NCBI GenBank assembly: GCA_028277185.1
Contig: JANQGQ010000018.1
Span: 248,001 to 312,000, forward strand
DNA: 64,000 bases
DNA from: Woeseiaceae bacterium
GTDB taxonomy: Bacteria; Pseudomonadota; Gammaproteobacteria; Steroidobacterales; Woeseiaceae
Direction: 5' to 3'
Every line of letters begins with the position of its first letter. Position 1 is the stretch's first letter. This document shows positions 18,527-29,685 of the stretch, piece by piece. Made by a program: the position numbers and the translations under genes. A model generated the notes under the pieces. That model worked only from the letters and a program-made list of their open reading frames with translations, ran no database searches and had not been told where the DNA came from.

Positions 18527-21304
18527 ATGACCGGTGGCCATCGAATACACGTATCGACACTGATATCTCATCGCAGTCAGGATTGCCGGCAAATGATATC
18601 AGCGCCCGTAAAGATGGCCTGGGGCAAGCTGCACCGGGAACCCGGCAAGGATCCGGCGTTCCTGGAGCTATCGTCGCACTGCGCCGATGTCGCCGCAGTA
18701 GCTGTGCGTCTGCTCGAATTGCCCGTATGGCAGCGGCGCTTCGAAGCGCTTGCCGGGCGTGAGCTAACCACATACGACATCACTCGCCTCGGCCTTATCG
18801 CCTACCTTCACGATCTGGGTAAGTGTGTCACCGGATTCTGGCTCAAGCAATTCGACGAGCAAGCCGACGATGGCACTGTCGACACGAGTATCCGCCGCGA
18901 TATTGTCAGGTCTCTCGGCGGCGACATCGGCGAATGCGGGCATACGACCGTTGTCAACATGCTGTTTCGAGGTACTGTTTTAGCAACCTTGAAAACGCAC
19001 CCTGTGTTCGGGATGTTGCAGAAAGCACCTGGCCATATCGATTTGCTGATTGCGTCGGTTTCACACCACGGTCAACCGGTAGATCCCAGGGACACCCGCG
19101 ATTTCTCGTGGACGTGGAAGCCCGCCCCGCTGCTGAACTACGACCCAGGCAAGCAACTCGACATTCTTCTCGATAAAGCGGCAGCGACGTTTGAGCCTGC
19201 GTTGCAGGATGGCGATCCACTGCCGACATCGGACCGCTTCGTGCACGGGTATTGCGGACTAGTCAGTCTTGCCGACTGGATCGGCTCGAATCCGGACCCA
19301 GCGTTTTTTCCATATGGTCTTGCGTCCGTCGATGATCGCTACGCGGCTGCATACGATCGAGCCACAGACGTATTGCGGCGCATGCGCATCGACTGCGTCG
19401 ACGCCACCACGTACGTTAGGGACCGTCGATCGTCTTTCGGCGACGTCTTTTTCGACACCGAGACGAGCGAACCGTACCAACCGACCCCCATTCAGGCTGC
19501 AGCAGGCGATCTCGGCCTGGGGCCGCTGGTAATCATCGAAGACGAAACCGGGGCCGGCAAGACCGAAGCCGCATTGTGGCGATTCAAGAGTCTCTTCGAA
19601 GCGGGCGAAGTCGATAGTCTCGTCTTTTGCCTACCGACACGCGTATCTGCCGTGTCCTTGTCGAAACGCGTCGAGAGTTTCGTCTCGCAGATGTTCCCCG
19701 ACGGCGATGTTCGACTCAACACAGTCACGGCCGTGCCGGGTTACCTCGTCTCAGATGGTCTGATTGGGGAGCGCCTGGCCCGTTTCGAATTTCTATGGCC
19801 GGACTCCGAAAACGAGTCAAGCGCTCACCGACATTGGGCAGCCGAGAATTCAAAACGCTACCTCGCTGCAGCCGTCGCGGTCGGCACGATCGATCAGGCG
19901 CTGCTCGCGGGGCTTAAAACGCGCCATGCTCACCTTCGCGGCACAGCACTGCTGCGGAGCCTGCTGGTGGTCGACGAGGTGCACGCATCGGACGTATACA
20001 TGACGCGAATCCTCGAGAAACTGCTGGCACGGCATATCAAGGCCGGCGGACATGCGTTGCTGCTATCCGCAACGCTGGGCAATTCGGCGCGGTCCAAGTT
20101 CCTAAGGCTCGTCGAATCCAACGACGACACCGAAAAGAGCGGACAAACCGGAGGCAAGCCCGAAAGAAGCGCTACGATGCCATACCCTGCAATCAGCAGC
20201 GCCCGATCGTTGTGCGGGTTTGTATCGAGAGGCCGGCAAAAGCGCGTTGAGATCGAGCTAGTCCCGGCTCTCGGGGAAAGTGCCGCCGTCACTAATCTCG
20301 CCGCATCGGCGGCCATGGCCGGTGCTCGGGTTCTCGTCGTGCAAAACACGGTTAATCAGGCAATCAACGTCCAGCGCGAACTCGAACGCAGCGATGCCTT
20401 GCGCGACGTACTCTTTCGCTGCAACGGCCAACCGTGCCCGCATCACGGCCGCTTCGCAGCCGTCGATAGAAAAGTGCTCGATGGAGAAGTCGAGCGGTTC
20501 TATGGCAAACAGAGTTCAAGCGGTCCGAGGATCCTGGTTGGTACCCAAACCTTGGAGCAAAGCCTCGATATCGACGCGGACTTCCTGATCAGCGATCTGT
20601 GCCCGATGGACGTGCTACTACAGCGCATTGGGCGACTGCATCGACACCACCGCAAGCGTCCAAAGGGCTTTAAGAGACCGAAGCTAATTCTGCTCGTTCC
20701 GCAGGAACGGGATCTGGCGCGGTGTCTATCGCAACTCAAATCTCATGGCCTCGGCTCCGTGTACCAGAATGTCGTCTCCATCGAGGCAACTTGGCAGGAA
20801 CTGGAGCAGCGGACTGAACTGGCGATTCCCAACGACAACCGTGAGCTCGTGGAGCGGACGACCGATTACGATCGTCTCAAAGCACTGGCGACGGAACTGG
20901 GACCGAACTGGGAAACCAGCTGGGCACGCCTCCAAGGTGTGGAGGCGGCCCGCGGTCAGCAGGCAATGCCGTTTTTGTTGGACTGGGATAGCGAATTCGA
21001 TGCATACGAGGAAAACACCGACGTTCTCACTCGGCTTGGCGATAAGCCGAGGCTTGTGAAGTTCGCCGAAACGCGATCACCCTTCGACCAGTCTTTGACC
21101 GAACTGCAGATACCCTACTATCTATGGCCAGTTAACTGTGAGCAGGCCGAGGTCAATATTGAGCGCAAGAGCGACGGAATCTATTTCAGCGTGTCCGATC
21201 GCCTGTTCACCTATTCCCGTCTCGGTCTCGTCTGCATTCCTGCGGGCGATGCGGATTCCGGAGAACCTCGCCGCGTCCCCACCAAGAAACAGGATCGTCG
21301 ATAG
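18527..21304 (+). CDS. cas3: CRISPR-associated helicase-nuclease Cas3 (type I-E)
   Basis: Cas3 effector (up to 925 aa) that unwinds and degrades DNA recruited by Cascade. The HD nuclease comes first: SHCADVAAV, YLHDLGKCV (HD), SVSHHGQ (paired His) and LADWIGSN. The superfamily 2 helicase follows: Walker A DETGAGKTEAA (about residue 340), DEVH box, SATLGN motif III and QRIGRLHRHH motif VI. All key residues are intact. The start is uncertain: ATG 18527 has GAGGA almost touching it, while ATGs at 18593 and 18614 (MAWGKLHRE) lie closer to the conserved N-terminus. It is separated from the Cascade genes by a 428-bp regulatory interval. Confidence 0.95.
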   Translation: MTGGHRIHVSTLISHRSQDCRQMISAPVKMAWGKLHREPGKDPAFLELSSHCADVAAVAVRLLELPVWQRRFEALAGRELTTYDITRLGLIAYLHDLGKCVTGFWLKQFDEQADDGTVDTSIRRDIVRSLGGDIGECGHTTVVNMLFRGTVLATLKTHPVFGMLQKAPGHIDLLIASVSHHGQPVDPRDTRDFSWTWKPAPLLNYDPGKQLDILLDKAAATFEPALQDGDPLPTSDRFVHGYCGLVSLADWIGSNPDPAFFPYGLASVDDRYAAAYDRATDVLRRMRIDCVDATTYVRDRRSSFGDVFFDTETSEPYQPTPIQAAAGDLGLGPLVIIEDETGAGKTEAALWRFKSLFEAGEVDSLVFCLPTRVSAVSLSKRVESFVSQMFPDGDVRLNTVTAVPGYLVSDGLIGERLARFEFLWPDSENESSAHRHWAAENSKRYLAAAVAVGTIDQALLAGLKTRHAHLRGTALLRSLLVVDEVHASDVYMTRILEKLLARHIKAGGHALLLSATLGNSARSKFLRLVESNDDTEKSGQTGGKPERSATMPYPAISSARSLCGFVSRGRQKRVEIELVPALGESAAVTNLAASAAMAGARVLVVQNTVNQAINVQRELERSDALRDVLFRCNGQPCPHHGRFAAVDRKVLDGEVERFYGKQSSSGPRILVGTQTLEQSLDIDADFLISDLCPMDVLLQRIGRLHRHHRKRPKGFKRPKLILLVPQERDLARCLSQLKSHGLGSVYQNVVSIEATWQELEQRTELAIPNDNRELVERTTDYDRLKALATELGPNWETSWARLQGVEAARGQQAMPFLLDWDSEFDAYEENTDVLTRLGDKPRLVKFAETRSPFDQSLTELQIPYYLWPVNCEQAEVNIERKSDGIYFSVSDRLFTYSRLGLVCIPAGDADSGEPRRVPTKKQDRR

Positions 21305-21448
21305 CTATTTGGACATATGCCGACTTTGAGCGTCTACCAGATACGGATGTGCTTACTGGAGTTCTGCGCACGAAGCCTAGAATTCCTTTACCACTCACGT
21401 ACTCCCGCCCGCAAATAGAAAGGCTTGATGGAGCATGCAACAATGGAA

Positions 21449-21532
21449 TGCCCGAGGTGGGATTCGAACCCACATGCCTGCTGCGGCGACGGTTTACAAA
21501 ACCGCTGTGTATGCCAATTCCACCACTCGGGC
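21449..21532 (-). tRNA. class II, leucine-type tRNA-like gene with UGU (Thr) anticodon
   Basis: Reading the minus strand from 21532, all four arms fold. The acceptor is 7 bp (GCCCGAG with CTCGGGC) with discriminator A. The D arm is GTG/CAC with AATTGG in the loop. The anticodon stem is GCGGT/ACCGT (one G-U pair) with loop TTTGTAA. A 15-nt variable arm with a GCC/GGC stem follows, then a T arm GTGGG TTCGAAT CCCAC. A long variable arm plus A73 and this D loop are leucine features, but the anticodon at positions 34-36 (plus-strand 21496-21498) is TGT, which reads ACA threonine codons. The D loop differs from the usual leucine GGTAGA (here GGCATA). No CCA is encoded. It lies between cas3 and cas8e, antisense to both. 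Confidence 0.85.
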
Positions 21533-21534
21533 AC

Positions 21535-21567
21535 AAAGGCCTGCGACGAATAGTCGTGGGCCTTTTT
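21535..21567 (+). terminator. intrinsic terminator after cas3
   Basis: A hairpin with AAAGGCC pairing to GGCCTTT and an inner CGAC/GTCG stem around a GAATA loop is followed on the plus strand by a run of five T. It can end transcripts from cas3. On the minus strand the same hairpin ends only 2 nt before the tRNA-like 5' end and has just three T after it, so there it is more likely a leader structure than an efficient terminator. Confidence 0.7.
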
Positions 21568-21606
21568 GTTTTCGTTTGTCGAAGACTAATAGCTATCTTT
21601 ACGGCT

Positions 21607-21624
21607 TGCAAACCACCTTCCGTA
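21607..21624 (-). promoter_or_regulatory. Cascade target site for the mini-CRISPR guide
   Basis: On the minus strand this site reads TACGGAAGGTGGTTTGCA. The guide of the neighbouring mini-CRISPR begins TACGGCAGGTGTTTTGCA. Sixteen of 18 positions match, with mismatches only at positions 6 and 12. Beyond position 18 similarity stops (2 of 14). Positions 6, 12 and 18 are flipped out in type I-E R-loops, so every read position of the first 18 matches. The PAM-position triplet on the minus strand is AAT. Limited pairing predicts binding without efficient cleavage. Confidence 0.85.
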
Positions 21625-21630
21625 ATTATA
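21625..21630 (-). promoter_or_regulatory. -10 element of the tRNA-like gene promoter
   Basis: The minus strand reads a perfect TATAAT here, immediately followed by the guide target. No good -35 hexamer is found 16-18 bp upstream (best CCGAGA at 17 bp), where the sequence is already the first degenerate repeat. The predicted transcript starts near 21618 and reaches the tRNA-like 5' end after about 85 nt. Confidence 0.6.
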
Positions 21631-21636
21631 TTTTCT

Positions 21637-21724
21637 TAGCACCCCGCTCTCGGGGATGGCCCTTACGGCAGGTGTTTTGCACCAATTGCAAGAGAGCTAA
21701 CCCCGCCCGCGCGGGGATTCGGAT
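21637..21724 (+). ncRNA. one-spacer mini-CRISPR (CreA/CreR-like crRNA)
   Basis: Degenerate repeat 1 (21637-21663) folds CCCCG-CTCT-CGGGG and ends in ATGGCCCT, against the array handle ATGGCCCC. Then come exactly 32 nt (21664-21695), the spacer length of this system. Degenerate repeat 2 (21696-21724) carries the array hairpin CCCCGC-CCGC-GCGGGG followed by AT. Cas6e, which cuts at the 3' base of this hairpin, should release a normal-sized crRNA with a nearly normal 5' handle. Repeat 2 has lost the ATGGCCCC handle (ATTCGGAT). The unit sits entirely in the cas8e leader, and its guide matches the promoter region just upstream. Confidence 0.85.
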
Positions 21725-21732
21725 GTAACTAA

Positions 21733-23301
21733 TTGAATTTACTAACCGATTCATTGTTTTCCGTTGCCGATACCAGCTGCACGTCGCATAAGTGCAGCCT
21801 TCCCGACATCTATGAGCTGGCAACTACCGATGAGGTTTCCAACTTCGAGCGTATACGCCCGCATCAGATTCCCGCTTTGCATGCCTTTCTGGTGCAGCTC
21901 GGCTGTATCGCCTGCGAGGCTGCCGGGCTGTCTTCTCCGCCGGAACACGCAGACGACTGGCGGCGCATACTTCGGTCGCTAACCCCCGCCTGGCCTGATG
22001 ACGAACCTTGGCGGCTGCTGGTAGCCGACTGGACCCAGCCCGCTTTTCTTCAGCCCGCTCAACCTGAAGCGGCCCCGCCGCTCAAGACGCGTGTCGAGCA
22101 GCCGGATAAGCTCGACTTCCTGGTCACGGCCAAAAATCACGATCTCAAGCAGCGGCGCATGGGCAGTAGCAGCGCCGAGGACTGGTTTTTTGCGCTGTTG
22201 TCGTTGCAGACACAGGAGGGATTTCTCGGGCAGGGCAACTACGGTATCGCGCGGATGAACGGTGGCTTTGCAAACCGCAGCTTTCTGACATTGGCGCCGG
22301 AACACGCGGGTTTCGGCGGACGTGTGTTTCGTGATATCCGCGCACTGCTCTCGAACATCGATGCTTTCCATGAAACGACGGTACTCGGGAACGGCCGAAC
22401 GCTGCTTTGGCTCGAGCCTTGGGATGGAACGACGTCGATCGCCGTTCAGGAATGCCACCCGCTGTTCATCGAGGTGTGCAGACGGATTCGTCTTGTCGAA
22501 GAAAATGACACCATCAGCGCGGCATTGGGCAACAGCAAGGTTCCGCGCGTAGACGCGAAAGCGTTCTTCGGCAACGTTAGGGACCCCTGGTTACCGCTCG
22601 ATATCCGGAGCGAGCCTCCGAAAGCAATGACCCTGGCTGCCGACGGCTTCTCCTACCGCCGGATGGCACAGCTCCTGTCCGGTTTCGACGGTAGATATCA
22701 GCTCCCATTTCTTGCAAAGCCTACAAAAAGGGAAAACAAGGAGCCGATGGCTTACGAAGCCTACGGTCTCGTTCGTGGTCAGGGCAAGACCGAGGGATTT
22801 CATCGCCGACGGATTCTCGTTCCGCGGAGTGCATTGCGGTTGTTTCACGAGCCCGATGGCCAGGAAAAACTCGTCGAGCGTTGCAGGATTTTCATGGACC
22901 TCGCCGCCAATGCCTCGGGGAAGGTGCTGCGGCCGGCGCTGATCCAGCTGTATCAGGGCAAAGCCGATGTCGAATGGAACAAGCCATCGAATGACGCGCT
23001 GTGTCGGCCCTGGCTGAAGCGCTTGGATGATCAAATCGATGAACGGTTCTTTCCGGTGCTTTTCAACACGCTGGATGAAGGCGATGGTGAGGCCAGACTG
23101 AGGTTCAGCGAGGTTCTGAGAGAACACGTGCAATCGACGTTTGACGACGCCGCGGAAGCAGCACCGCATCAGGAGGACTGCCGAGACATTGCGCGTGCCC
23201 GCGCGGAGCTTCTGCTGGCACGATTGCTGAGAAAACACCTGCCGTCGCTGCGACCACAGGCCAACACCAACGAAGGAGAGCCAGATGAGCAAAGAGCCTG
23301 A
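21733..23301 (+). CDS. casA: Cascade large subunit Cas8e (Cse1/CasA)
   Basis: Large subunit of the type I-E surveillance complex (522 aa), which recognises the PAM and recruits Cas3. The start is TTG 21733: the N-terminus MNLLTDSLFSV matches the MNLL opening of E. coli CasA, and GGATG lies about 9 nt upstream. Family segments include FFALLSLQTQEGFLGQGNYGIARMNGG and a C-terminal helical bundle rich in Arg and Leu. The start codon is 16 nt after the hairpin of degenerate repeat 2, so Cas6e cleavage there would create a new 5' end of the mRNA. It overlaps cse2 by 17 nt. Confidence 0.95.
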   Translation: MNLLTDSLFSVADTSCTSHKCSLPDIYELATTDEVSNFERIRPHQIPALHAFLVQLGCIACEAAGLSSPPEHADDWRRILRSLTPAWPDDEPWRLLVADWTQPAFLQPAQPEAAPPLKTRVEQPDKLDFLVTAKNHDLKQRRMGSSSAEDWFFALLSLQTQEGFLGQGNYGIARMNGGFANRSFLTLAPEHAGFGGRVFRDIRALLSNIDAFHETTVLGNGRTLLWLEPWDGTTSIAVQECHPLFIEVCRRIRLVEENDTISAALGNSKVPRVDAKAFFGNVRDPWLPLDIRSEPPKAMTLAADGFSYRRMAQLLSGFDGRYQLPFLAKPTKRENKEPMAYEAYGLVRGQGKTEGFHRRRILVPRSALRLFHEPDGQEKLVERCRIFMDLAANASGKVLRPALIQLYQGKADVEWNKPSNDALCRPWLKRLDDQIDERFFPVLFNTLDEGDGEARLRFSEVLREHVQSTFDDAAEAAPHQEDCRDIARARAELLLARLLRKHLPSLRPQANTNEGEPDEQRA

Positions 23302-23821
23302 CGAAAAGCGCCCAGACGCCCTCTGGCGGCTCTCCAATTGGCTGCTGAATAAACGCAGGTCAACCGGCGACCTTGCCCGGCTGCGCCGCATGAACCCCAG
23401 AAGCCCCGAGGCAGCCTTCGACGTACTTCACTATCTGCACGGTGAGCCGATTCTGCATACCCCGCTGGTTCGTCTGCAACGCTGGGCATTGATCGTGCAC
23501 TGCCTGGCCCTGGCAGGAGGGCGCCATCGTAAAGGAGCCCCTGGCTTCGGTCGCGTATTGGTCGAAATTCACTATGGAGAACTCCGCCTGCGGCAACTGC
23601 TGAGAGCCGATCTCGACGTGCTTCTCGATGTACTGCCACGAGTCGCCCGGCGTCTCGCAGCCAAATCGCTCGAAGCGGACTGGTGGTTCGTCAGGGAACT
23701 CGTCCTGAACGTGCCGCCCGCCGACAGAAACGCCGACCCGGACAAGGCGGATGCCGCCCGCCGGCATATCGCCAAAGACTTCGTAATCGCCAGCCGCGCC
23801 GAACAGGCCAAAGCATCCTGA
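23285..23821 (+). CDS. casB: Cascade small subunit Cse2 (CasB/Cas11e)
   Basis: Small alpha-helical Cascade subunit (178 aa), two copies of which form the belly of the complex and stabilise the R-loop. It is recognised by position between cas8e and cas7e, length and features such as DLARLRRMNPRSPEAAFDVLHYL and RFGRVLVEIHYGELRLRQLLRADLD-like helices. ATG 23285 is preceded by GGAGAG inside the 3' end of cas8e. Confidence 0.92.
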   Translation: MSKEPDEKRPDALWRLSNWLLNKRRSTGDLARLRRMNPRSPEAAFDVLHYLHGEPILHTPLVRLQRWALIVHCLALAGGRHRKGAPGFGRVLVEIHYGELRLRQLLRADLDVLLDVLPRVARRLAAKSLEADWWFVRELVLNVPPADRNADPDKADAARRHIAKDFVIASRAEQAKAS

Positions 23822-23843
23822 CGTAAGACTATCGGAGAAACTC

Positions 23844-24983
23844 ATGCCCCGTTTCCTTCAGCTTCACTGGCTCGCTTCTTATCCTGCCACCCTCCTCAAC
23901 CGTGACGACGCGGGGCTTGCCAAACGTATTCCGTTCGGCGGCGTGACTCGCGGTCGCATCTCGTCACAGTGTCTGAAACGCCATTGGCGGCTTGCAGGTA
24001 CCGATTCGCTGGAGGCTGCGCGAACCAATCCGTGGGCCCTGCAGAATATCGGCGTCGAGACGTCGCTGCGGAGCAAGGAAGTCGTGGAACAGCGGATTCG
24101 ACCGCGTTTGGAGAGCTTGGACGCCGCTACTCCCGAGAAGCTCGACACGCTGTGCACGGCATTGATTGAGGCGATCTACGGTTCGAAGGCGGCTGATCCG
24201 AAGAAGCGTCAGGCACTGCTACTCGGAGAAGCAGAGATCGAGTATCTCGCCGGCAAGGCCGAGGAGGCGATACACGCAGTTGATGAGAACGCCGCTCTCG
24301 CGGCACTGGCAGATTCGCTTAAGAACGAGAAAAAGAACATCAAAGCTCTGGTTGGCGGCGGCGGTCTGGAAGCTGCATTGTTCGGGCGAATGGTCACTTC
24401 CGATCCGGCAGCGAATACAGATGCCGCGATTCACGTCGCGCACGCGCTGACGGTTCATCCACTCGAGCGGGAGCTTGACTTCATGGCCGTCGTCGACGAC
24501 TTGAAGCACCGGGAGGACGGTGACGACGCTGGTGCCGCCGGCATTTTCGACATGGAGCTCGCGAGCGGACTGTACTACGGCTACGTCGTCGTCGATCTGC
24601 CGCTCCTCGTCGCCAACCTGAGCGCCGACGACAGCATTGCCGGCAAAGTACTCGAGCATCTCGTACACCTGATCGCAGAGGTTTCCCCTGGCGCAAAAAA
24701 AGGTTCTACGGCGCCGTACGCCTACGCCCAGTGGATGATGGTAGAACTCGGCGACCGGCAGCCGAGAACGCTCGCGAATGCCTTCCATGAACCGCTTGTC
24801 GCACGCGGCACCGGCGTATCCGATGCAGCGGCGAAACTCGGCGAGCATCTGACAGCCATGGATGAAGCCTACGGCGCGCACGAAGACCGCCGACAGATGA
24901 GCGTGGACGCATCGCTGTCCGATATCCCCCGGATCAACCTCAACGAACTCGCGGCCTGGGCAGCAGCAGGAGTCAACAGTTGA
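23844..24983 (+). CDS. casC: Cascade backbone subunit Cas7e (Cse4/CasC)
   Basis: Backbone subunit (379 aa) that polymerises along the crRNA spacer. The N-terminus carries the Cas7e signature NRDDAGLAKRIPFGGVTRGRISSQCLKRHWR, the middle VAHALTVHPLERELDFMAVVDDL and GAAGIFDMELASGLYYGYVVVD. The ATG follows GGAG by a proper distance, 22 nt after cse2. Its stop overlaps the TTG start of cas5e. Confidence 0.96.
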   Translation: MPRFLQLHWLASYPATLLNRDDAGLAKRIPFGGVTRGRISSQCLKRHWRLAGTDSLEAARTNPWALQNIGVETSLRSKEVVEQRIRPRLESLDAATPEKLDTLCTALIEAIYGSKAADPKKRQALLLGEAEIEYLAGKAEEAIHAVDENAALAALADSLKNEKKNIKALVGGGGLEAALFGRMVTSDPAANTDAAIHVAHALTVHPLERELDFMAVVDDLKHREDGDDAGAAGIFDMELASGLYYGYVVVDLPLLVANLSADDSIAGKVLEHLVHLIAEVSPGAKKGSTAPYAYAQWMMVELGDRQPRTLANAFHEPLVARGTGVSDAAAKLGEHLTAMDEAYGAHEDRRQMSVDASLSDIPRINLNELAAWAAAGVNS

Positions 24984-25696
24984 GCGAATACTTGCTGCTG
25001 CGGCTGGAGGCACCGTTGATGAGCTTCGGCGGCGTTGCGGTCGATAACCGTGGCGTCGAAATGCCGCTGCCAGCGGTCAGCATGATGACCGGTCTGCTCG
25101 GCAATGCTCTCGGTCTGCGGCGACAGGACTTCACCGAGCTGAACGCGCTGCAATCTCGCTTACGATTTGTCGTCCGCATGGACCACAGCGGCTTCTCGCT
25201 GACGGACTTTCAAACAGCGGACCTGAACAAGTCGGATCACGGCTGGACGACACGTGGCGAAGTGGAGAGCCGCGACGGTGGAGCCGGTACGTACGCGGGT
25301 AAACACATCAGATACCGCGACTTCCATGCCGATCGCAGTGCTTTGCTGGCGTTGTGGCTCGAACCGGCACAACAGGAGCCAGAACTAGCACAGCTTCAGG
25401 AGGCTGTCCGGGAACCCCGCCGACCGTTGTTTATTGGCCGGAAGCCGTGCTTGCCGTCAACTTATCTGGATGCGGGCATCGTCGAAGCGGCCAACCCGCT
25501 CGACGCACTCGCGACACGACCAGTCAAGTCCCCTGACAGCTCAGCTCAGGTAACCGTCTTCCAGCAACTACCAGCCGACGCGGCGCCACAGCCCGGAGAT
25601 TTGCGAGTCAGCGGTCACCGCATCTGGGAGAATCAGGTACACGGCGGAGAACAGCGTTGGCGAGAGTCTCCATTCGAGCAGAAACACGACTCATGA
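24980..25696 (+). CDS. casD: Cascade subunit Cas5e (CasD)
   Basis: Cas5e (238 aa) caps the 5' handle end of the crRNA. The N-terminus has the Cas5 motif LLLRLEAPLMSFGG followed by the glycine-rich MMTGLLGNALGL, and the middle has the RDFHADRSALLAL segment. The start is TTG at 24980, overlapping the cas7e stop (TTGA); its own stop overlaps the cas6e ATG (ATGA), so the Cascade genes are translationally linked. Confidence 0.94.
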   Translation: MSEYLLLRLEAPLMSFGGVAVDNRGVEMPLPAVSMMTGLLGNALGLRRQDFTELNALQSRLRFVVRMDHSGFSLTDFQTADLNKSDHGWTTRGEVESRDGGAGTYAGKHIRYRDFHADRSALLALWLEPAQQEPELAQLQEAVREPRRPLFIGRKPCLPSTYLDAGIVEAANPLDALATRPVKSPDSSAQVTVFQQLPADAAPQPGDLRVSGHRIWENQVHGGEQRWRESPFEQKHDS

Positions 25697-26415
25697 GCGC
25701 GCTGCAAATAGTCCGATTCGAACCCGATGTGCTTGCGTTTCGCCGTTGGGGACACCAACACGGGCTGCTGGCTCCGGGCGTTGATGGCGGGTACGCGTGG
25801 CACGCGTTGATGAAGGCAGCACTGGGTGACGACGCGCCGAAGCCGTTTGTCGTCAGAACTCGCAGCGGTAGCACCGAGCTGTTGTCATACACGACGCGAG
25901 ATACCCGGCACTGGCTGCCGATGGGTCAGGAAGAAGAAGCGATCAAGGCACTCGGTCTGGCAAGCTTGCGGGTCAGACCGTTCCCAACCGATTGGACGGC
26001 CGGCGATCACGCAAGCTTCGAAGTTCGTATCAGACCCGTCGTACGAGCACGTACCAATAGAGACAACAAGCGGGAACTGGACGCCGCAGTGCACGCGCGG
26101 CAGGCCGATCCGGAAGCGCGCCGAGAAGACGTCTATCGCAGGTGGCTGAATGGCCAGTTGGGGCGCGACGGCGCAGCGAAGCTCTACGGTGCACCGAGGC
26201 TGGTGCGGTTTCGCCGCTCGTACGTTCTGCGGAGGGACCGAAGTGCAACAACATCTGCAGTGCGAAAGGTCGCCGGACCGGACGCCGTTTTTCGCGGCGA
26301 ACTCGAAGTCATCGATGGCGATGCGTTTTTAGCCCTGATCGCTCGCGGTTTGGGACGCCATCGCGCTTTCGGGTTCGGATGTTTGTTGCTGGCGCCGCCC
26401 GGCGCCTTGAGATAG
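25693..26415 (+). CDS. casE: crRNA endonuclease Cas6e (CasE)
   Basis: Cas6e (240 aa) cuts the repeat RNA at the 3' base of its hairpin and stays bound to it. Features: N-terminal RAMP fold, a His-containing segment near residue 25 (HQHGLLAPG) and the C-terminal glycine-rich loop GLGRHRAFGFGCLLL. ATG 25693 overlaps the cas5e stop; the frame is open upstream, but only within cas5e. The same enzyme should process both the main array and the degenerate repeats ahead of cas8e. Confidence 0.94.
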   Translation: MSALQIVRFEPDVLAFRRWGHQHGLLAPGVDGGYAWHALMKAALGDDAPKPFVVRTRSGSTELLSYTTRDTRHWLPMGQEEEAIKALGLASLRVRPFPTDWTAGDHASFEVRIRPVVRARTNRDNKRELDAAVHARQADPEARREDVYRRWLNGQLGRDGAAKLYGAPRLVRFRRSYVLRRDRSATTSAVRKVAGPDAVFRGELEVIDGDAFLALIARGLGRHRAFGFGCLLLAPPGALR

Positions 26416-26419
26416 CAGT

Positions 26420-27289
26420 ATGCTTCGCGGCAGGCTGGGACTGGAGACAGCGCGCGTTGCCCACGCAGACCGACACGGCATCATACTGCTGGATCGCGGC
26501 AACCTCGTGGTGGAGGACGGTTGTCTTCGGTTCTCCACGGCCGGTGGCTCGCTGGAACCGGGTGACTATCAGATACCCCATCAGACGTTGAGCGCAATTC
26601 TGCTTGGCCCCGGTAGCACAGTCAGTCACGACGCGTTGCGCCTGCTCGCACGGCACGGTACGGGACTTGCCGCAGTTGGAACGGACGGCGTGCGATGCTA
26701 CACGGCACCGCCACTCGGTCCGGACCGATCCGACTGGGCCAGACAGCAGGCGCGACTTTGGTCGGACGAGAAGCAACGACTACAGATTGCCCGACAGATG
26801 TACGCCTGGCGCCTCGGCGAGGTGCTTCCGCACCGGAGCATCGAGGTATTGCGGGGCATAGAAGGCAGCCGCATGAAGGAATCCTATCGGCTTGTCGCTC
26901 GCCGCTTCGATGTAGGATGGCATGGCCGACGTTATGACCGGCAGAACCCCGATGCAACAGACCCACCAAATCAGGCCATCAACCACGCCGCTACCGCCGT
27001 GGAGTCGGCCGCCGCAATTGCTGTTGCCTGCACGTCGACACTGCCACAACTGGGGTTCATCCACGAGGATTCCGATCAGAGTTTCGTTCTGGACATAGCA
27101 GACCTATACCGAACGTCTGTGACGCTACCCATTGCATTCGCGTCAGCCAAGGAACTGAAAACGAATCACGGAGATACCTTAGATCGGATCGTGCGGCGCC
27201 GAGCCAGCCGGGCATTTCGTAAGGAAAAGCTCATCCCGAAAATGATCGATCGAATCAAGGAGCTCTTTAGAAAGCCGGAACAACTGTGA
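26420..27289 (+). CDS. cas1: adaptation integrase Cas1e
   Basis: Type I-E Cas1 (289 aa), the metal-dependent integrase for new spacers. The catalytic set is visible: Glu in RGIEGSRMKESY, His in LGFIHEDSDQSF and the following Asp pair in VLDIADLYR. It begins 4 nt after cas6e and overlaps cas2 by 4 nt. All active-site residues are present, so the adaptation module looks functional. Confidence 0.96.
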   Translation: MLRGRLGLETARVAHADRHGIILLDRGNLVVEDGCLRFSTAGGSLEPGDYQIPHQTLSAILLGPGSTVSHDALRLLARHGTGLAAVGTDGVRCYTAPPLGPDRSDWARQQARLWSDEKQRLQIARQMYAWRLGEVLPHRSIEVLRGIEGSRMKESYRLVARRFDVGWHGRRYDRQNPDATDPPNQAINHAATAVESAAAIAVACTSTLPQLGFIHEDSDQSFVLDIADLYRTSVTLPIAFASAKELKTNHGDTLDRIVRRRASRAFRKEKLIPKMIDRIKELFRKPEQL

Positions 27290-27609
27290 GTCTGACCGTC
27301 GTAATCACCAGAGATGTTCAGAACCGCTACCGCGGATTTCTCGGTTCGGTCATGCTGGAGGTTAGTGCCGGGGTCTACATCAGCCCCCGGCTGAACGCAG
27401 GTGTAAGAAATCGGATATGGAACGTGATGTCGGACTGGCACGGACACCTTCAGCGCGGCGCGATCATCATGAGTTGGAGCTCGCCCGAAGAACCCGGCGG
27501 AGTCGGACTCAGAATTCTGGGAGAGCCGCCCAAGACTTTGTCGATAGTGGATGGAGTGCTCCTTGTACGCCGCATTGCGGAATCATCCGATAGCTCTTTA
27601 ACAAATTGA
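27286..27609 (+). CDS. cas2: adaptation subunit Cas2e
   Basis: Cas2e (107 aa) bridges two Cas1 dimers. The typical pattern is LTVVITRDVQNRYRGFLGSVMLEVSAGVYI, then NRIWNVMSDW and GAIIMSWSS. GTG start at 27286 overlaps the cas1 stop. The last codons of the gene overlap a boxA antiterminator sequence that belongs to the CRISPR leader. Confidence 0.95.
   Translation: MSLTVVITRDVQNRYRGFLGSVMLEVSAGVYISPRLNAGVRNRIWNVMSDWHGHLQRGAIIMSWSSPEEPGGVGLRILGEPPKTLSIVDGVLLVRRIAESSDSSLTN
27593..27604 (+). promoter_or_regulatory. boxA antitermination element of the CRISPR leader
   Basis: The sequence GCTCTTTAACAA is identical to the core of the boxA of bacterial rRNA operons, bound in RNA by NusB/S10. It overlaps the last codons of cas2 and lies 40 nt before the first repeat. 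BoxA elements in CRISPR leaders are known to protect long untranslated array transcripts from Rho. Confidence 0.8.
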
Positions 27610-27617
27610 TTTTTAAA

Positions 27618-27643
27618 CCTAGATCAGCAGGTTAAGATCTAGG
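27618..27643 (+). promoter_or_regulatory. leader inverted repeat with IHF-like core
   Basis: CCTAGATC (27618-27625) and GATCTAGG (27636-27643) form a perfect 8-bp inverted repeat whose right arm ends exactly at the first repeat. The segment 27622-27634 (GATCAGCAGGTTA) is close to the IHF consensus WATCAA-N4-TTR, with two departures. IHF bends the leader during type I-E spacer integration, so this is probably the integration-directing element. Confidence 0.6.
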
Positions 27644-29685
27644 GTCTGCCCCGCCTGCGCGGGGATGGCCCCTGAGCAAAAGCTGCGCGATATTGCTGAG
27701 CAGAGTCTGCCCCGCCTGCGCGGGGATGGCCCCTACATCGCCGAACTCGAGCAGCTAACCGGAGAGTCTGCCCCGCCTGCGCGGGGATGGCCCCGGCTTG
27801 GGAGACGTCAGATCAATTCGCTCGTTGTCTGCCCCGCCTGCGCGGGGATGGCCCCCAGATAATGTATGGCTCTCCGAAGTTCCAGGAGTCTGCCCCGCCT
27901 GCGCGGGGATGGCCCCGCGCCACCACGTATCGGTGACGGGCGCCTCGAGTCTGCCCCGCCTGCGCGGGGATGGCCCCTCGTACGTGTCCTAACGAGGGCA
28001 TCGTAGTGTGTCTGCCCCGCCTGCGCGGGGATGGCCCCGACCGCCGGCATTGTCGGTCTCGGCCGCGGCGGTCTGCCCCGCCTGCGCGGGGATGGCCCCG
28101 AATCTGGCGGCCGGGCTGGTGCAGGCTTTCGGTCTGCCCCGCCTGCGCGGGGATGGCCCCGTAAATGTGCCGGCCGTTATAGATCCTGACCTGTCTGCCC
28201 CGCCTGCGCGGGGATGGCCCCGCGATACCAATTGCGGAAATTCCCGACAGCTCGTCTGCCCCGCCTGCGCGGGGATGGCCCCGTAAGCACGGTGTTACTG
28301 GTATTCGTATCGTCGTCTGCCCCGCCTGCGCGGGGATGGCCCGTCATAGAGGCGCAGGTTGTTGATGCGAACGCTGTCTGCCCCGCCTGCGCGGGGATGG
28401 CCCCAGCTCTTCTTCAACGAAGTACGGATTACTACTGTCTGCCCCGCCTGCGCGGGGATGGCCCCTGGCTGTTCAGTCCCGCATCAAGCCAAGCTACGTC
28501 TGCCCCGCCTGCGCGGGGATGGCCCCATCGATTCTCAGAAGCCCGAGCGTGTTGGTGTGTCTGCCCCGCCTGCGCGGGGATGGCCCCTTGACCTCACTCG
28601 ATGCGTTCTCCTTTTGAAAGTCTGCCCCGCCTGCGCGGGGATGGCCCCGATCTCTACCTCGATCTTCGCCTTGTGCGATCGTCTGCCCCGCCTGCGCGGG
28701 GATGGCCCCACTGGCCCACCGCTCGCGTCGCTGAATTCGCAGTCTGCCCCGCCTGCGCGGGGATGGCCCCGAATCGGTGTTCGCATCGTTGACGATGAAA
28801 AAGTCTGCCCCGCCCGCGCGGGGATGGCCCCTGCTGCAGCTGGCCCGTGTCCTGCTTCGAGACGTCTGCCCCGCCCGCGCGGGGATGGCCCCTTGGCGGG
28901 GGCGCAAGGCTCCGGACGAAACTGGTCTGCCCCGCCCGCGCGGGGATGGCCCCCTAGGCTCACCGCACCCTGATCATCTATCAACGTCTGCCCCGCCCGC
29001 GCGGGGATGGCCCCGTGTTAGGCAGCTGGGGATATGCTGCGCATATGTCTGCCCCGCCCGCGCGGGGATGGCCCGCCTTCCAGGTCGTCAAACTCCCGCA
29101 CGATACGGTCTGCCCCGCCCGCGCGGGGATGGCCCCGGGACAAGCTGGCCGCCCTGGCGCGGCGTGACGTCTGCCCCGCCCGCGCGGGGATGGCCCCGTC
29201 TTGTGATTCTCCAGACTGGAGTTTTCGTAGTCTGCCCCGCCCGCGCGGGGATGGCCCCATCATCAACCGCAAATCCTCCTGCGGCATCGAGTCTGCCCCG
29301 CCTGCGCTGGGATGGTCCCACGTTCCTGAATCCGGACGCGGTCAAGTACACGTTTGCCCCGCCTGCGCGGGGATGGTCCCGATGCGACGACCGGGCAAGT
29401 GGTGCTGGGGCAGTCTGCCCCGCCTGCGCGGGGATGGTCCCGGCCAGTTAAACGGCGGGCCGTTCTGCTTGACGTCTGCCCCGCCTACGCAGGGATGGTC
29501 CCGTGTAGAACTCGGCGGCGTGATCGGCAAGCGTGTCTGCCCCGTCTGCGTGGGTAGGGTCACAGCTACCGCTTAGCAATTCGAGGTAGCTCGTAGTCTG
29601 CCCCGCCCGCACGGGGATGGTCCTCCTTCACAACACCTTTCCCGACAGGGCAAGAAGTCTACCCCGCCTGCGTGGGGATCGTTGC
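27644..29685 (+). CRISPR. type I-E CRISPR array, 34 repeats, 33 spacers
   Basis: Repeats are 29 nt and begin every 61 bp without exception from 27644 to 29657, so all 33 spacers are 32 nt. Each repeat starts GTCTG, folds a CCCCGC/GCGGGG hairpin over a four-base loop and ends ATGGCCCC, the predicted crRNA 5' handle. Repeats 1-19 have loop CTGC, repeats 20-27 loop CCGC, and repeats 28-34 mostly end GGTCCC with growing decay; the last ends ATCGTTGC. Repeats 12 and 24 end in G. The leader is on the left, next to cas2, so the right end is the oldest. No intact cas gene lies beyond it. Confidence 0.99.

Follow-up and report, generated by a model that had tools for sequence, protein, structure and literature searches.

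The gap between cas3 and cas8e of a Woeseiaceae type I-E CRISPR locus contains a one-spacer mini-CRISPR that, judged from its sequence, likely plays a CreR/CreA-like role: its guide partly matches a target in front of cas8e, and beyond that target stands a divergent tRNA-like gene. The explanation that we prefer, and to which we give an even chance, is that the mini-CRISPR RNA together with Cascade silences both the cas8e operon and the divergent Leu-type tRNA, the latter being an addiction toxin. Self-repression of cas genes is already known in the form of CreR; the tRNA partner is the new element. In the letters of the window, by which we mean the whole 64,000-nucleotide stretch that was analysed, and of a same-genus relative (G045), we read the repeats, the guide, the target, the PAM-side triplet, the co-variation of guide and target in the relative and a tRNA gene whose anticodon is not one of leucine.

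The mini-CRISPR and its setting

The type I-E cas set is complete in the window (cas3, cas8e, cse2, cas7e, cas5e, cas6e, cas1e and cas2e) and is accompanied by a main array (Table 1). Running through the cas3-cas8e gap are, in order, the minus-strand tRNA-like gene, a plus-strand predicted terminator, the target and the mini-CRISPR. The original prediction had described two degenerate repeats around exactly 32 nt, the first of them with a near-intact 5' handle; re-reading of 21637-21724 gives the same picture, with the spacer at 21664-21695 and the handle-like ATGGCCCT at 21656-21663. Repeat 1 also keeps a 5-bp hairpin (21642-21655), and the hairpin of repeat 2, CCCCGC-CCGC-GCGGGG, is intact at 21701-21716. 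What stands beside the cas operon is a crRNA-like unit with repeat-derived ends, as in CreR; creA of CreTA is built likewise, from a pair of degenerate repeats and a guide with a partial match to a promoter region, which here is a predicted one.

Table 1. Features of the cas locus and of the gap between cas3 and cas8e, in window coordinates
Feature	Position	Strand	Basis
cas3 (helicase-nuclease), upstream of the module	18527..21304	+	Pfam Cas3_HD, Cas3-like_C_2; TIGR01587
tRNA-like gene, type II (Leu-like) body, candidate CreT-like payload	21448..21533	-	ARAGORN; RF00005 57.6 bits
Hairpin and T-run, predicted terminator, between tRNA-like gene and target	21535..21565	+	terminator scan
Candidate -10 TAGTCT for the tRNA-like gene, weak	21583..21588	-	sequence reading, 17 nt from TTGCAA
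TTGCAA palindrome, candidate -35 for both directions, overlaps target	21606..21611	.	sequence reading
Target (protospacer)	21607..21624	-	16/18 match, mismatches 6 and 12
PAM-side triplet AAT on the protospacer strand	21625..21627	-	sequence; AAT in G045 too
Candidate -10 TATTTT for the mini-CRISPR/cas8e promoter, weak	21629..21634	+	sequence reading
Degenerate repeat 1, 27 nt (array repeat: 29 nt), with handle-like ATGGCCCT at its 3' end	21637..21663	+	sequence reading; repeat family
Guide (spacer), 32 nt	21664..21695	+	sequence reading
Degenerate repeat 2, 29 nt, intact 6-bp hairpin	21696..21724	+	sequence reading; repeat family
cas8e (cse1/casA), TTG start, first gene 3' of the mini-CRISPR	21733..23301	+	TIGR02547 81.4 bits; 76% identity in G045
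cse2, cas7e, cas5e, cas6e, cas1e, cas2e	23285..27609	+	ORFs and domain matches
Main CRISPR array, 29-nt repeat GTCTGCCCCGCCTGCGCGGGGATGGCCCC, 61-nt period	27644..29624	+	repeat search

Guide-target pairing in the genome and in a relative

Guide positions 1-18 (TACGGCAGGTGTTTTGCA), set against minus-strand 21624-21607 (TACGGAAGGTGGTTTGCA), are mismatched at positions 6 and 12 only, and the target lies 40-57 bp upstream of the guide, before cas8e. As is characteristic of CreR, the guide is partly complementary (16/18) to the predicted promoter region of its cognate cas operon. The earlier claim of a 16/18 match with mismatches at 6 and 12 is confirmed by the sequence, and the accompanying arithmetic, which put two or fewer mismatches in 18 at about 2 in 10^8 per position, is correct. 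Searching the whole genome (4,411,823 bases) with positions 6 and 12 left free and up to two further mismatches allowed returned three matches. The exact ones are the guide and the target only; the third is a 2-mismatch site on another contig. Genome-wide uniqueness and the rates obtained with control guides (see below) both agree with the view that a chance match is very unlikely, and together they rule it out.

What kind of binding would such pairing produce? According to the available text of one study, the affinity of E. coli Cascade is maximal with a PAM-proximal match of up to 18 bp, and interference needs longer pairing (PMC5904413). The pattern seen here appears to be that expected of a guide that binds without cutting. 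It is also very like that of the type I-F CreA of Acinetobacter, for which the excerpt at hand gives 17 of 20 positions paired, positions 6, 11 and 18 unpaired and a target downstream of the creT promoter (PMC10097628); here the paired part is guide 1-18 without 6 and 12. The two systems differ in subtype and in payload, the Acinetobacter CreT being no tRNA but a small RNA that carries a start codon and a hairpin.

G045 (locus L035 of the survey below) is the only same-genus genome in which we found this cas8e, at 76% identity; among 107 genomes of the family cas8e occurs in two, own genome included. The order of elements in G045 is the same: tRNA-like gene, hairpin, TTGCAA, target, mini-CRISPR and cas8e. 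Its guide TATGATGGGCGCGTTGTG faces the target TATGAAGGTCGCGTTGCA, with AAT on the PAM side. Conserved pairing with co-varying changes had been put forward as a check in related genomes. When it was sought, G045 was found to differ from the window on both sides at positions 3, 5, 7, 10 and 13 with pairing kept (five double changes), pairing being lost at positions 9 and 17 (two breaks). Guide-target pairing is thereby kept under change, as it is in CreR. The unit could instead be the remnant of a decayed array with a fortuitous self-match, and its repeats are indeed degenerate. This reading is disfavoured by the co-variation in G045, as well as by the uniqueness of the guide-target match in the genome and by the finding of pairs in 19 of 81 loci against a control rate near 1%, and we regard it as scarcely credible.

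Other close cas8e homologues (P0002-P0004 and P0006-P0010) have 56-82% identity. At locus L036, which has the next closest cas8e reached (60%), there is no guide-target pair and no tRNA. In G045 a Cas3 C-terminal domain precedes the main array, and a TumE/HVO_A0114-type toxin pair is located between that array and the tRNA-like gene (L004, 3914-4581, minus strand).

Survey upstream of cas8e

Up to 700 nt upstream of cas8e were scanned in the window and in the best 80 of 235 genome-contig loci, 81 loci altogether. Pairs were scored over 15 positions, namely guide 1-17 without 6 and 12, and a locus was called paired at a score of at least 13/15. Once the threshold was applied, a repeat-like element was present in 33 of the 81 loci and yielded 54 candidate guides. 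A local guide-target pair of at least 13/15 was found in 19 loci, where about 0.6 would be expected from controls among 54 guides, and one of at least 14/15 in 14 loci (about 0.2 expected). Control guides not beside a repeat (n=104,120) reached 15/15 in 0.13%, at least 14 in 0.36% and at least 13 in 1.03% of cases. L058 and L106 (14/15) and L107 (13/15) fell below the repeat threshold and L047, L065, L066, L083 and L112 scored 12/15; all of these stand outside the 19.

One of the paired loci, L052, has ACG on the PAM side, matches at positions 6 and 12 too and resembles chance; it was left out of a second count, which covers 18 loci. On the PAM side these carry AAT (9), AAC (6), AGT, AAA and CAA (1 each), so that AAT or AAC accounts for 15/18. 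Guide position 6 is mismatched in 18/18 (chance 0.006 if a quarter matched; with L052 counted, one match in 19, chance 0.03). Some of the paired loci are mutually related, and the 18 are for that reason not independent events. Free drift would let position 6 match in about a quarter of loci, and the constant mismatch may have been selected. Position 12 matches in 4/18 and position 18 in 6/18. The spacer measures 31-32 nt in 9/18, 38 nt in L038 and about 19-21 nt in seven (L037, L048, L054, L063, L064, L073 and L090); in L099 it was misplaced by the script. The spacers of about 19-21 nt just cover the paired part, as against 32 nt.

Similar pairs upstream of cas8e recur in lineages far removed from this one, and in most of them the PAM-side triplet is AAT or AAC. 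The survey suggests a pattern for type I-E regulatory guides, in which pairing is mostly confined to positions 1-17, position 6 is unpaired (18/18) and the PAM-side triplet is AAT or AAC (15/18); such a pattern could help to separate self-matching guides that bind from those that cut. Stand-alone repeats and mini-arrays partly matching cas8 promoters in type I systems were reportedly described by Shmakov et al. in NAR in 2023, and the unit in the window shares with them the partial match to a cas8 promoter, here a predicted one. The original prediction of a type I-E CreA/CreR-like RNA holds as the best reading of the unit, which is unique in its genome, co-varies in G045 and recurs elsewhere; the unit is not singular (19/81), and the tRNA-like gene, the most surprising element of the locus, had been missed.

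How far does the cas8e of this locus extend? With own genome counted, it was found in 2/197 relatives, 2/396 genomes of the order and, by alignment, 8/369 of the class; it was also present in 9/148 genomes of the class of L084's genome and in 7/396 of the phylum of L073's genome. None of the searches of relative, order, family, class and phylum genomes gave a further close relative bearing the tRNA. Sixteen further cas8e loci from the class and phylum searches contained no pair of 12/15 or better and no tRNA at ARAGORN -ps95, with two weak calls at -ps88. cas8e alone, run against genome contigs, retrieved 22 stretches and no relatives; the cas8e alignment retrieved 80 stretches and no relatives from viral contigs, and the module DNA had no match in phages. 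Five plasmid records contain cas8e, all below 60% identity.

A tRNA-like gene on the other side of the target

The tRNA-like gene has a long variable arm, discriminator A and the 7-nt anticodon loop TTTGTAA with anticodon TGT. Arm-by-arm pairing shows every arm present with one D-stem mismatch, which is common to the genome's own canonical Leu tRNA, and among the tRNAs compared the gene is nearest to Leu(TAA) (73.8-76.2%). Its anticodon, UGU, corresponds to the threonine codon ACA; the G045 copy has TTA (UUA), which would read the stop codon UAA. Neither anticodon belongs to leucine, and UUA pairs with no sense codon. Both copies have normal 7-nt anticodon loops, neither encodes a full CCA, and their minimum-energy folds are not cloverleaves. 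Across 73 genus genomes the DNA at 21440-21640 matches three: G000, G045 and, through its canonical Leu(TAA), G024. Besides this last, the DNA of the tRNA-like gene and cas8e co-occur in the same two genomes.

Might the gene be an ordinary spare tRNA, or an integration scar left by a CRISPR island? tRNA genes are common integration sites, and the genome's own contig C30 has a tRNA cluster with some odd members. The gene is, however, a whole tRNA, and it is flanked by cas3 and cas8e within the cas locus; it is this position that disfavours island integration at a tRNA. UUA would be of no use as a sense anticodon, and among the own tRNAs read, canonical Leu genes already cover five anticodons and a canonical Thr(TGT) exists as well. 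We therefore consider the spare or scar reading distinctly improbable. The C30 cluster itself, at about 14.3-18.4 kb, includes several low scores or odd anticodon calls and possibly lies on a mobile element.

The tRNA-like gene lies 74 nt from the target and shares the target region; its candidate minus-strand promoter is weak. In G045, TAGTAT occurs on the minus strand at the same spacing from TTGCAA, and on the plus strand the consensus scan reports TTGCAA-17-TATCAT. A hairpin similar to the predicted terminator is seen in the G045 alignment; the terminator scan of G045 is without it. No promoter in the gap of the window passes the consensus scan (TATTTT and TAGTCT go unreported), nor does any minus-strand promoter in G045. 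Since the minus-strand promoter is reported by neither scan and the plus-strand one is weak, it is by inference that we assign dual control of both neighbours to the target.

One alternative is a plain CreR: the mini-CRISPR would do no more than repress its own cas operon, with the tRNA-like gene as a bystander. CreR, attributed to Liu et al. (2023, Cell Host Microbe), is a crRNA-like RNA repressing its own cas operon and is called widespread in type I and V-A systems in the portion of a review available to us (PMC12737573). Like CreR, the unit in the window is crRNA-like, adjoins the cas operon and partly matches the sequence in front of it. All the guide-target evidence fits this view, the target lies 35-106 nt from the guide in 13 of the 19 paired loci, window included, and 14 of the 19 are without a tRNA-like gene even when weak ones are counted. 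Yet the module is accompanied by the tRNA-like gene in both relatives, the two copies have different anticodons, and the target falls inside the DNA from which the gene would need to be transcribed. CreR generally comes without a coupled toxin gene; here the target region is shared with a tRNA-like gene, on its far side, that may be toxic. We rate plain CreR as a serious contender that falls somewhat short of an even chance.

tRNA-like sequences at other cas8e loci

At three paired loci of the Acidobacteriota group, L073 (Acidobacteria), L084 and L054 (both Thermoanaerobaculia), a tRNA-like sequence is located between target and mini-CRISPR; target and guide are on one strand there, with the target 269-405 nt upstream. 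A model built from own-genome tRNAs scores 42.5 bits in L073, 17.9 in L084 and 15.7 in L054; with default filters this model does not list the L054 stretch at E<=5, and at the same cut-off Rfam reports no tRNA at any of the three loci. The minimum-energy fold of the L073 stretch is not a cloverleaf, and the L084 stretch folds no better than shuffles (z 0.13). As read from the sequence, the anticodon loops of L054 and L084 look enlarged, at about 10 nt. Between these two loci, whose cas8e are 74% identical, the DNA from promoter to mini-CRISPR aligns poorly and the tRNA-like stretch aligns best, with some stem changes that appear to be compensated. Of 147 genomes of the class, the L084 stretch matches three, namely the genomes of L084 and L054 and a third in which the match covers just 23 nt.

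With ARAGORN at default settings, a tRNA lies within 700 nt upstream of cas8e in 3/19 paired loci versus 2/62 others; of these latter two calls, L083 is a canonical Leu(CAA) and L103 is doubtful. The counts become 4/19 versus 4/62 at -ps90 and 5/19 versus 8/62 at -ps88, and across these levels of strictness an enrichment of tRNAs at paired loci is only suggestive. Adding two weak loci by hand and taking L103 out gives 5/19 versus 1/62 (Fisher 0.002), which is a selected count. Most paired loci are thus without a tRNA (14/19, weak ones counted). L037 and L076, which are paired and have distant targets, contain no convincing tRNA. In the interval between target and mini-CRISPR of L076, at about -240 to -60, a small ORF with a ribosome-binding-like site is possible, and no tRNA is seen there.

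A model for the module

How might a single guide serve two neighbours? By analogy with known systems, Cas6e would cut after 21716, the 61-nt RNA so released (21656-21716) would load onto Cascade, and Cascade, held in the gap by pairing over about 17 bp, would repress transcription towards either side. We propose that Cas3 does not cleave the site because pairing stops at about 17 bp. TTGCAA, which overlaps the target, may, with less certainty, act as the -35 element for both directions; with a shared -35, one bound Cascade would both lower its own operon in the manner of CreR and keep the tRNA off in the manner of CreA. The most speculative step comes last. If Cascade were lost or blocked, the tRNA would be made and charged with leucine, and it might then misread ACA codons here, or the stop codon UAA in G045, with harm to the cell and addiction to CRISPR as the outcome. 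In bacteria such as E. coli, leucyl-tRNA synthetase recognises its tRNAs largely without regard to the anticodon. Our proposal, short of proof, is a CreTA-like module in which a mis-decoding tRNA takes the part of CreT. In its fullest form the proposal is a poison tRNA guarded by CRISPR: Cascade silences a Leu-type tRNA (UGU here, UUA in the relative), loss of Cascade leads to mistranslation, and other type I-E lineages have independently recruited other tRNA-like RNAs. This form we put forward tentatively and think unlikely as a whole.

The tRNA-like RNA might instead be a decoy, a payload that clogs a synthetase, RNase P or the ribosome and does not mis-decode. Up to its last step this account is the same as our preferred explanation. 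It would suit the difference between the anticodons, TGT and TTA, and the anticodon loops of about 10 nt in L054 and L084, which should not decode normally. The window and G045 copies, with normal 7-nt loops and full arms, have more than a decoy needs, and we judge the decoy improbable.

The CreTA modules of haloarchaeal type I-B systems, as far as the consulted excerpts go, have a CreT that is a mini-ORF RNA trapping a rare tRNA, and the creTA of H. hispanica occupies the intergenic region in front of cas8, a region that feeds cas transcription (PMC8501985; PMC9458426). The module in the window shares with them two divergent degenerate repeats and, with H. hispanica, the site before cas8. The difference is that the haloarchaeal CreT traps a tRNA, whereas the candidate payload here is itself tRNA-like. 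The known CreT toxins either trap rare tRNAs or likely block translation initiation, according to those parts of the CreTA literature that we could draw on. CreT is typically a mini-ORF or hairpin RNA; the candidate here is a tRNA by RF00005 (57.6 bits) and ARAGORN. Within the accessible portions of the literature searched on CreR, CreTA and tRNA toxins we found no tRNA acting as CreT, which is not proof of absence. If the proposal is true, tRNAs join the known CreT toxins: with a tRNA gene controlled by the guide that also controls cas, CRISPR-addiction toxins would gain a new class. It would be easy to test, and a tRNA with the wrong anticodon could poison without any protein.

Further observations concern the RNA and the main array. 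In the predicted 61-nt RNA the guide (21664-21695) can fold on itself into the GGTGTTTTGCACC hairpin, and this could influence loading or pairing. If Cas6e cuts repeat 2, the cas8e mRNA would keep a leader of about 16 nt (21716-21733), and processing of the mini-CRISPR could in this way also affect cas8e translation. As cas2e and the first repeat of the main array are only about 35 nt apart (27609-27644), the array leader may overlap the end of cas2e. At the far side, the repeats at 29291-29624 carry changes, which suggests that this is the old end of the array.
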